Positions 18,845 to 42,432 of a stretch of 42,432 nucleotides of DNA are shown piece by piece; position 1 is the stretch's first letter; each line of letters begins with the position of its first letter. The stretch is from Planctomycetota bacterium (lineage in GTDB: Bacteria; Planctomycetota; Phycisphaerae; Sedimentisphaerales; Anaerobacaceae): positions 1 to 42,432 of the forward strand of contig JAGLSU010000031.1 of assembly GCA_023135935.1 (NCBI GenBank). Direction: 5' to 3'. Both the position numbers and the translations under genes were made by a program. The notes beneath the pieces are model-generated. The model saw only the letters and a list, made by a program, of their open reading frames with translations. It ran no database searches and was not told the origin of the DNA.

Positions 18845-19420
18845 CTAAACGGTTTGCAACTGCTTTTCAGCTCGAAGCACTATAGCCGAATCAGCCCAAA
18901 CAAGATGCTTTATCAAAGTGGTCGAGACCAAAGTCACGCCCATGCTGAATATCTTCTGTTCGACCATCGAAGCTATGGCCCTTGCCGTCTGCTGGCTGAT
19001 ATCATACTCTGCAACAAGGTCAGCTACTATCCTGGATTTGTTCCAGCGAGCCCGATGCTTCGATTCTCTCATCACACAAAACGTCTCCGCATCCGGAAGC
19101 TGCTCGGTATCAACCGAGACAACCTCTATCCTCGAACGTTTGAGCCTGCGCTCGTAGTGATATTCACTAAGTACGATGGCTGCGTCCTCATGCCCGGTCG
19201 AAGTCAAAACCACTTCGACCATAGAGAAAATTTCGCTGGCAGTTATACTGCGACGCTTTTTGCTGTGATAAAGAAAATACGTAACCGCATCAGCCAACTC
19301 TTCGGCGATAGTGATATCCGCCATGTTCGCTTCAGCTAAGGCACTACTGATAGTACCTATAACCTTGGTATGCAAATACTGCTCGATGCTACCGTCGGAC
19401 TTAACTACCTTAAGCTGCAT
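18845..19420 (-). CDS. ATP-cone domain protein next to nrdR
   Basis: A 191-aa protein. Its N-terminal ~90 residues are an ATP-cone (LKVVKSDGSIEQYLHTKVIGTISSALAEANM...ITASEIFSMVEVVL), the nucleotide-sensing module of NrdR and ribonucleotide reductases. The C-terminal half (KHRARWNKSRIVADLVAEYDISQQTARAIASMVEQKIFSMG) looks like a second, diverged cone. There is no catalytic or DNA-binding domain in view. SD GGGAGGGGATAGATG is strong. It follows nrdR by 86 bp on the same strand, so it may tune NrdR or the reductase according to ATP/dATP levels, which is inference. Confidence 0.75.
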   Translation of the reverse strand: MQLKVVKSDGSIEQYLHTKVIGTISSALAEANMADITIAEELADAVTYFLYHSKKRRSITASEIFSMVEVVLTSTGHEDAAIVLSEYHYERRLKRSRIEVVSVDTEQLPDAETFCVMRESKHRARWNKSRIVADLVAEYDISQQTARAIASMVEQKIFSMGVTLVSTTLIKHLVWADSAIVLRAEKQLQTV

Positions 19421-19506: not shown

Positions 19507-19998
19507 TTACCCATCAAAAAGATTTGCTTGACCAATGGGCTCAGTTTCGGCAATCACCTGACTTACTTCATCAATCAGTTCATCGGCGTCCTTGAAGTCA
19601 CGATAGACGCTGGCGAATCGAATGTATGCCACCTTGTCCGCTCCGCGGAGATGGCTCATTACGCTTTCACCGATAAAAGTTGATGGGACTTCCTTGTCAA
19701 ATTTACGGAATATATCTTCCTCGACCTTATCAGCGATTTGCTGAATTCGCTCTGCGGGAACTTCCCTTTTGTAACAAGCCTTCTGCAGACCAGCGAGGAT
19801 TTTATCTCTATCATAGGGAACACGAGAATTGTCTTTTTTTACCACATAAAGTTTGAAACTTTCGCCTATTTTTTCGTACGTGGTAAAGCGTCTCTTGCAT
19901 ACGAGACATTGTCGTCGACGCCTTATTACCCTGCCGGCGTCACTTGAACGCGAGTCTATAACCTTATCCTTATCTTCCTTGCAAAATGGACACTTCAT
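19507..19998 (-). CDS. nrdR: Transcriptional repressor of ribonucleotide reductase genes
   Basis: A 163-aa NrdR. The N-terminal zinc ribbon is MKCPFC...VIDSRSSDAGRVIRRRRQCLVCKRRFTTYE, followed by the ATP-cone (VVKKDNSRVPYDRDKILAGLQKACYKR...VPSTFIGESVMSHLRGADKVAYIRFASVYRDF). It senses ATP/dATP and binds paired NrdR boxes to repress nrd genes. Candidate NrdR boxes lie in its own promoter, suggesting autoregulation. The gene starts behind GAGGTGGG and is followed by the ATP-cone protein. No ribonucleotide reductase gene is in the window. Confidence 0.97.
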   Translation of the reverse strand: MKCPFCKEDKDKVIDSRSSDAGRVIRRRRQCLVCKRRFTTYEKIGESFKLYVVKKDNSRVPYDRDKILAGLQKACYKREVPAERIQQIADKVEEDIFRKFDKEVPSTFIGESVMSHLRGADKVAYIRFASVYRDFKDADELIDEVSQVIAETEPIGQANLFDG

Positions 19999-20105: not shown

Positions 20106-20243
20106 AAAAAATCTCACAACAAAACTGTAATTAAGTATATCAGGGTTGTTAAGTTTTGTTCGACACGCTCACAATCCATGCATAGGCAAGCACTAACAGA
20201 AATGCACAAAAAGAATTCACAGGCATTTTAGGTGCGGATTTTT

Positions 20244-20280
20244 AAAAAAAAGAGCTCCTGTGGATTGCCCGCAGGAGCTC
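20244..20280 (-). terminator. Strong intrinsic terminator
   Basis: The minus strand reads GAGCTCCTG-CGGGCAATCCA-CAGGAGCTC followed by TTTTTTTT. The perfect 9-bp stem and U8 mark the end of a transcript coming from the ThyA-like gene or from a separate RNA at about 20281-20520. Confidence 0.9.
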
Positions 20281-20646
20281 GACCCAGAAAGAAACTTGTA
20301 TGGCCCCCCCATAAAAGTTCGCTCCGTAAGCTTTCGCCTCTATGCAAAAGCATTTTTTTTAAAGTCCTGCCATGCTGCAAGTCTGTTGGTCCCCCCCCAC
20401 CGGCAGGATGGACTGAGCGAAAAAGCACTTTTTATTTTGAGCGGCCGCACTTATACGACAAGGCGGCTTGCGCCCCCCACTTTAATGGCTCAGTTCTATT
20501 AAAAGCTTAATATAAAAATCTCGCCGAGCAAATCGAGCGTGACACCTTTTTTGCCTTTTTAGAACAGCCCGATAAATTCACACCTGGTGACGTGAGAGGG
20601 ACGAAGTGTCACTGCCGAATTCAGTTTTGAATGAGAAAAAATGAAA
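20281..20646 (-). ncRNA. Terminator-capped G-tract-rich non-coding stretch, candidate RNA
   Basis: The stretch of about 370 nt between the ThyA-like gene and the terminator has no credible ORF. On the minus strand it carries three G-tracts (GTGGGGGGCGC, GGTGGGGGGGGACC, ATGGGGGGGCC) spaced about 60-85 nt, with GGCGCAAGCCGCC and CCTGCC...GGCAGG stems. A possible TATATT -10 lies near 20510. It may be a long structured 3'-UTR or an independent small RNA. It did not match the conserved cores of SRP RNA, tmRNA or 6S RNA that I know. The ORFs listed on either strand are broken by homopolymers. Confidence 0.4.
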
Positions 20647-21537
20647 TTAATCTCTGGCTTTTGCGTACCAATCCGGGTCCTGCGCGAGCTTTTCTTTGGC
20701 CTCTACCGTCATCATCTCAAAGGCGGGATGAGCACTATCCCAGGCGCGCTCGGCAAATGAACTCAGTTTCATTTTCTCCACTTCTTTTGCGGCATCACTA
20801 AAATAGCTGCCGTAAATATGCAGTGAGTCACTTATATCGACATAGCGACCAACTGTCACCGGCTGACCTATATTCTTAGAAATCCGCTCGGCAATTACTT
20901 TTTGCAGGTCAGTAAGCGCATAAACATTCATAAACCATGCCTTGTAGAGGTCGCGGCTTCGCCAGTGCGTGTTCATATTAAGTGACAAATTTCCTTCCTC
21001 ATCGCTTATCAGCCTGCACCATATCCGCTGCAGGCATGGCGGGTCGTCTGTCTGTGGGTCCGCTGTAGGCATCCAGGTAATCGCTTGCGCCCTTCGGCTA
21101 TGACCTGCCTGTGAGAGATTATCTATTATATATTCAATTTGCGCGACACTTTTGAAAGGCTTCGGCGAATCGGCATCACGAATATTTTCCACCGGACAAT
21201 ACGAGAAAAGTCTTTCATGATATGTATAAGTCCACTTGCCCGCAGTGGGGTCTATCCAATGGTCGTGAATGCCATCGACTACTTCCTGCCTGTAAACTTC
21301 CAGCTCAGCGGGACCACCGGGAAAGTTCTTATGAATCCTTGGTTCGGCAAACGGGTTATTAATTGTCACCATTACCGTCGCGTCTTTACTCGGCGGGTCA
21401 CTGGGCTTGTCGTATTGGGTCCTGATATCAAGACCGTTGTCCCAGACAGCCAACACCGCCTTTTCCCATGCCTCAGGAAGGCAATCAGCTGTGACATAAA
21501 TTACAGGTATATTAGAAGTCGAAGCAGTAGCAGTCAT
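20647..21537 (-). CDS. Thymidylate synthase-like protein (ThyA superfamily)
   Basis: A 296-aa protein. The central part PPCLQRIWCRLISDEEGNLSLNMNTHWRSRDLYKAWFMNVYALTDLQ follows the ThyA order: nucleophile Cys (about C168) in PPC.Q, then RSRD.....F.N, which binds the phosphate and pyrimidine. Near residue 237-242 comes DSLHIY, where classical enzymes have GD.H.Y; the Asp appears shifted or replaced. The divergence resembles archaeal-type thymidylate synthases or dCMP/dUMP hydroxymethylases more than bacterial ThyA. It would make dTMP or a modified pyrimidine nucleotide. SD GGAGG lies 10 nt before the ATG. It follows the gene at 21569 by 31 bp. Confidence 0.65.
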   Translation of the reverse strand: MTATASTSNIPVIYVTADCLPEAWEKAVLAVWDNGLDIRTQYDKPSDPPSKDATVMVTINNPFAEPRIHKNFPGGPAELEVYRQEVVDGIHDHWIDPTAGKWTYTYHERLFSYCPVENIRDADSPKPFKSVAQIEYIIDNLSQAGHSRRAQAITWMPTADPQTDDPPCLQRIWCRLISDEEGNLSLNMNTHWRSRDLYKAWFMNVYALTDLQKVIAERISKNIGQPVTVGRYVDISDSLHIYGSYFSDAAKEVEKMKLSSFAERAWDSAHPAFEMMTVEAKEKLAQDPDWYAKARD

Positions 21538-42254: not shown

Positions 42255-42432
42255 GACAATTAAAGAGTGGGTCGGACGGTCGCCGGTTCTATGAACTGGA
42301 GGAAAGTCCGAGCAGGAATGGGCAACGGTGGTGGCTAACGGCCACCGAGGGCAACCTCAGGGAAAGTGCCACAGAAAATACACAGCCAATGGTCTCGATT
42401 CGTCGGGACACAGGCAATGGTGAAATGGTGCG
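42255..42432 (+). ncRNA. rnpB: RNase P RNA, 5' part (runs off the window)
   Basis: The sequence has the bacterial RNase P RNA core: GGTCGGACGGTCGCCGG, then GAACTGGAGGAAAGTCCGAGC (P3-P4 entry, GAGGAAAGTCCG), GGTGGTGGCTAACGGCCACC, CAGGGAAAGTGCCACAGAAAATA and, at the end, GGTGAAATGGTGCG. These are class A-type conserved words. It is the catalytic RNA that removes 5' leaders of pre-tRNAs. The 3' half, including the second P4 strand, lies beyond the window. The exact 5' end is approximate. Confidence 0.95.

Follow-up and report, generated by a model that had tools for sequence, protein, structure and literature searches.

A small RNA gene of its own, predicted to yield a transcript of ~255 nt, is almost certainly encoded at positions 20244..20498 on the minus strand of the window, by which is meant the whole 42,432-nucleotide stretch of DNA analysed here. 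In the Sedimentisphaerales (Planctomycetota) this gene would be present in a single copy, transcribed on its own into a non-coding RNA and inherited at a fixed site of the chromosome, after thymidylate-synthase-like or PPIase genes and, as a rule, before nrdR. Its well-supported parts are a sigma70-like promoter, a folded 5′ domain and hairpins (in its long form), a G-run with the strand AUAUAAGUUUCUUUCCGAGUU, and a terminator. Taken as a whole, the explanation considered moderately probable is that this order-level gene produces a regulatory RNA that acts in trans and independently of Hfq.

An unclassified small RNA was among the readings offered in an earlier note on this DNA, and it is borne out by the promoter, the terminator, order-wide conservation in the same place, covariation and the lack of an Rfam match. 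Of the features looked for in an sRNA, the locus has its own promoter (conserved −35/−10, predicted), an intrinsic terminator (covarying hairpin and U-run) and independence from its neighbours (several relatives have a different or divergent gene downstream). Because it is conserved in place across the order and absent from Rfam, the RNA looks like an undescribed family; literature searches found neither the conserved 3′ string nor any study of regulatory RNAs from this order, and the family is regarded as a real, order-level family of a stand-alone bacterial small RNA, undescribed as far as these searches reach.

The locus and its predicted transcript

The RNA lies between two genes of the same strand, both outside it: upstream, a gene for a thymidylate-synthase-like protein (20647..21537, minus strand; Pfam PF00303, E 3.2e-9) and, downstream, nrdR (19507..19998, minus strand; Pfam PF22811 and PF03477). 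On the 3′ side of nrdR, in the window as in relatives, is a gene for a second ATP-cone protein (18845-19420, minus strand). A bacterial RNase P RNA of class A is found at 42264-42432 on the plus strand, truncated at the window end.

The three long G-runs that first drew attention to the region are indeed present on the minus strand between 20646 and 20244, as G6 (20478-20473), G8 (20398-20391) and G7 (20310-20304), and three runs of at least six G in 403 nt are rare among dinucleotide shuffles (P = 0.0005, mean 0.32). Only the G7 run is kept in essentially all relatives; the first two are not kept as runs throughout them. The description of the region as free of open reading frames holds only roughly, as frames of chance size occur on both strands, with 66 aa for the minus and 80 and 92 aa for the plus strand. 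Coding is nevertheless unlikely, because the length of the G-run in the conserved part differs among relatives, which would shift frames.

The predicted promoter consists of a −35 hexamer TTGCTC (20526..20531, minus strand) and a −10 hexamer TAAGCT (20504..20509, minus strand) separated by 16 bp. Sequence comparison predicts sigma70-like hexamers, spaced by 16-18 bp (mostly 17 in relatives), in nearly all copies, with ATTTG[CT]CC and similar sequences at −35 and TA[GTA]ACT, usually followed by TTTA, at −10. Because this promoter is common to relatives, the RNA is predicted to run from about 20498, ~6 nt past the −10 hexamer, to the U-run ending at 20244 (255 nt). The gene is thus shorter than the interval 20244-20646, of which ~150 nt at the 20646 end precede the predicted start, and its fold is more stable than that of shuffled sequences (z = −3.14 for 20498-20244; z = −2.95 for 20646-20230).

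An element, TTATCGGGCTGTTC (TTATCGGGCTGTT; 20562..20575, minus strand), precedes the predicted start by some 60-80 nt; it is kept in part of the window's own family (many copies), has a 94% match in genome G023 (blastn query 71-101) and occurs rarely at other places in the four genomes searched for it. Copies of the RNA differ in the distance from predicted start to G-run, which is ~30-95 nt in short forms, ~150 in intermediate and ~175-205 in long ones.

Conserved 3′ module, terminator and 5′ domain

The part that relatives have in common is a 3′ module of the form GGGGG(G)(G)NYAURYAAGUUUCUUUCCGAGUU, followed by the terminator. In the window the conserved segment is UGGGGGGGCCAUACAAGUUUCUUUCUGGGUC (20281..20311, minus strand), with the G-run placed in or beside the loop of a hairpin formed with the preceding bases. 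The mean energy of this modelled hairpin is −10.9, compared with −9.96 ± 0.24 when flanks are swapped between genomes (reached in 0 of 300 swaps), so that the 5′ flank pairs with the conserved strand better than flanks exchanged between genomes do. The hairpin is perfect in copies of family f7 (AAGAAACUUA/UAAGUUUCUU, loci L112 and L113) and long in f3 (L032). The 5′ arm is variable, and this hairpin is not among the consensus helices given by RNAalifold, for which reason its formation is graded as likely only.

The 9-bp terminator noticed earlier is present immediately downstream (20244..20280, minus strand), its arms GAGCUCCUG (20280-20272) and CAGGAGCUC (20260-20252) enclosing a loop of 11 and leading into U8 (20251-20244); an automated scan missed it because that scan limited loops to 8. 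Comparison with relatives points strongly to a conserved helix, with 98.5% of cells paired and two-sided changes in 9 of the 10 pairs, a result that 0 of 500 shuffles reached.

In the long form, RNAalifold and covariation define a 5′ domain (20412..20494, minus strand) that is closed by P1, in which ACUGAGC (20494-20488) pairs with GCUCAGU (20418-20412), and contains an inner long stem; its RNAalifold score is −23.5, against −1.2 ± 1.3 for column-shuffled alignments. The same approach gives a second hairpin, UCCUGCC...GGCAGGA (20365..20408, minus strand), which has the G8 run on the 5′ side of its loop and scores −5.6, against −0.2 ± 0.5 for column-shuffled alignments; a hairpin resembling it is also found in family f2. 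Among 15 long-form sequences two-sided changes occur in 17 of 28 pairs, where 9.9 are expected, and slid controls do far worse, a comparison that favours the structure because this alignment also served to derive it.

Distribution within the order

The labels f1 to f7 are those of the genome set, f1 being the window's family, and the name of the order is taken from record titles. Comparison by blastn with 40 related genomes found conserved pieces in a dozen, all of the same family, corresponding to the 3′ part (query 336-408) and to the upstream element; these loci share the architecture of promoter, variable or folded middle, 3′ module and terminator. Scanning 84,980 genomes for a sequence pattern returned 29 loci, 28 of which have this architecture as far as the contig reaches and are titled Planctomycetota/Planctomycetes, Phycisphaerae, Phycisphaerales, Sedimentisphaerales or uncultured bacterium. 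The remaining match (L041, Bacteroidetes) was rejected as chance, being inside a reading frame and without the architecture. Since the scan required part of the motif, the conservation seen in that part is circular within the pattern-scan set; CCGAGUU, the terminator and the promoter, which are outside the pattern, and the loci obtained by blastn and by covariance model are not circular.

When 148 genomes of the order were searched with R1, a covariance model built on the 3′ module, 66 of the 76 f1 genomes sampled matched, 63 of them at E < 1e-8. Beyond f1, R1 matches in f3 (G026, 1e-14) and f7 (G067, G104 and G112, 2e-8 to 8e-7), and weakly in f2. Across the phylum, none of 294 genomes, the window's own genome aside, scored better than E 2.7e-4 with R1, and mostly at terminator positions only. 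Syntenic forms upstream of nrdR can be detected in f2 (L114, L115, L131), f6 (L140) and f7 (L111, L112, L143, L147), with open reading frames placed around L114 and L115, and no recognisable copy was found in the region upstream of nrdR in f4, including the three single-contig genomes read, in f5 and in several f7 genomes. The RNA is absent from some f1 genomes, and in G003 (L129) a terminator-like remnant directly follows the thymidylate-synthase-like gene, without the RNA. The phages, plasmids and viral contigs searched gave no match to the RNA.

Two further observations concern individual copies. One assembly, G128, contains two differing copies (L117 and L127), both behind an apparent PPIase gene end, which represent either a paralogue or contamination. 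In the f2 copies L114, L115, L123, L131, L132, L136 and L137 the sequence CTTCTCTCCTCCTTTAACTTGTGCTTCCTGCC is nearly invariant.

Possible partners and mode of action

Hfq was found in 0 of 41 genomes, in a search that detected its positive controls, and the RNA would thus not be an antisense sRNA of the Hfq-dependent kind. A partner RNA would make contact with the conserved G-run loop and the pyrimidine-rich strand, and translation-start regions would be the first suspects as partners, given the invariant CUUCUCUCCUCC in the sister families' copies of the gene. This anti-Shine-Dalgarno-like sequence is found in f2 and f6 copies, and CUCCUCC in f3, in L111 and in L143 (f7); f1 forms are without the CUCCUCC segment. 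In the relative G011, AGGA occurs in 105 of 297 start regions compared with 36-45 in control regions, an excess that is indicative only, because start calling itself favours Shine-Dalgarno-like sites. Together, the anti-Shine-Dalgarno segments of sister families and the Shine-Dalgarno-like sites of this relative make pairing with translation starts the leading idea, and such a mechanism is put forward tentatively.

Searches for targets provided no enrichment. Complements of the conserved f1 strand number 374 sites in 60 genomes, against 427 for the reversed control; the 297 start regions of G011 (~18% of the genome, with crude start calling) have no clear target excess, and C-runs are rarer in them; and a search of the window's own genome for a long antisense target found no second near-complement. 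Exact complement sites examined elsewhere lie in or near mutually unrelated-looking genes (L168, L170, L171, L172) or are the RNA itself (L169). Because complementary targets are not enriched, pairing stays an inferred mechanism, and the partner in f1 may be a protein or a few targets.

The RNA might accordingly bind a protein, by sequestration or as a scaffold, through the conserved G-run hairpin and not pair with mRNA at all. This would suit a 3′ segment that is very highly conserved yet has no excess of complementary sites, as well as the lack of Hfq and the folded 5′ domain. However, the motif of the obvious candidate, CsrA, which 36 of 41 genomes encode, is depleted; protein binding in place of pairing is therefore held to be rather unlikely. 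A CsrB-type sponge for CsrA was rejected, GGA occurring 92 times in the RNAs where 131 are expected. It is also conceivable, if unlikely, that this order-specific RNA changed its contact surface in the course of evolution, sister families exposing a CUCCUCC anti-Shine-Dalgarno strand and the window's family the G-run hairpin with the AAGUUUCUUUCC strand, and that it works independently of Hfq through a protein, the ribosome or a small set of mRNAs.

Relation to the neighbouring genes

The position of the RNA also allows it to be read as part of a neighbour. As a cis-acting leader or attenuator of nrdR it would end at a terminator that is read through under some condition, and nrdR does follow, in the same orientation, in the window and in many relatives. 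In several others, however, the RNA is retained although an unrelated gene of the opposite strand comes next, such as one for a pyruvate-formate-lyase-like protein (L042) or an LRR protein (L044), an arrangement that argues against a leader of nrdR. A promoter-like TTGACA-16-TAAAAT (20105-20078, minus strand) furthermore lies between terminator and nrdR, and no antiterminator partner for the terminator arm was found by eye, so that a leader or attenuator of nrdR is improbable.

The same promoter region of nrdR (20105-20078, minus strand) contains TTGACATACTATATGTTGG, which resembles an NrdR box placed over the promoter and which we take to indicate likely autoregulation. A further element, CCTGTGAA/CTGTGAG, occurs between the terminator and nrdR in the window (20216-20223, minus strand) and in many f1 genomes (many of L031-L059), and is found reversed (TTCACAG, CTCACAG) in f2, f6 and f7 (L131, L140, L143, L147).

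The earlier note had offered a 3′-UTR as another reading. Taken strictly, the sequence would then be only the 3′-UTR and terminator of the thymidylate-synthase-like operon. The location immediately 3′ of that gene on the same strand fits, as does the remnant in G003, where a terminator-like sequence adjoins the gene without the RNA. The conserved promoter, however, separates gene from RNA, the sequence and 5′ structure of the RNA are themselves conserved, and in other relatives it is kept behind a PPIase gene; because of the intervening promoter and these other upstream genes, the 3′-UTR is unlikely as the main reading and, as the sole explanation, highly improbable.

G-quadruplex potential and known RNA families

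The G-quadruplex potential suggested by the three long G-runs found no support. No four-tract pattern of G3 or longer is found with loops of up to 12, the distance between runs is ~75-80 nt, and relatives do not keep the first two as runs throughout. The 31 RNAs do contain 49 runs of five or more G where 21.7 are expected, but 31 of these are the single conserved run, so that other G-runs are at chance level, and a G-quadruplex element is very improbable.

Searches with Rfam 15 families at gathering and relaxed thresholds returned no match at the locus at the gathering score, the best sub-threshold match being PyrR (E 0.46, 24.5 of 54 bits). A match to 6S or SRP RNA had been named as what would overturn the small RNA reading; covariance models of 6S RNA (RF00013) and bacterial SRP RNA (RF00169) have none at the locus, and the true RNAs are encoded elsewhere in the window's genome (G000:C111 and G000:C151, respectively). 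A divergent housekeeping RNA (6S, SRP or tmRNA), for which size range and single copy would be suitable, is thus a negligible prospect, given those two genes, the absence of a Rfam match at the gathering threshold and the lack of a tmRNA here by ARAGORN.

Significance and comparison with known systems

A single-copy RNA that extends across an order, with a near-invariant 3′ module, offers an entry point to RNA regulation in an order whose sampled genomes have no detectable Hfq, and adds a candidate family absent from Rfam. Cyanobacterial Yfr1-type sRNAs are likewise clade-restricted and have a short, nearly invariant segment beside the terminator hairpin; their sequence is different, and the present RNA exceeds them in length and has a folded 5′ domain. 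A homopolymeric G-run and a pyrimidine-rich RNA, as may be the case here, form the regulatory contact of RepG in Helicobacter pylori, which targets a G-repeat in the tlpB leader (PMC8295292), although the G-run is there in the target mRNA and here in the RNA itself, and signs of homology are absent. The SmelA075 and SmelA099 families of Rhizobiales comprise sRNAs that are transcribed independently, are distributed at order level and have CCUCCUCCC hairpin loops and anti-Shine-Dalgarno motifs (PMC3927594). The G-run hairpin has no counterpart in them, the window's family is without CUCCUCC, and there is no Rfam match, whereas the copies of the sister families (f2, f3, f6 and some f7) resemble them in carrying CUCCUCC segments.
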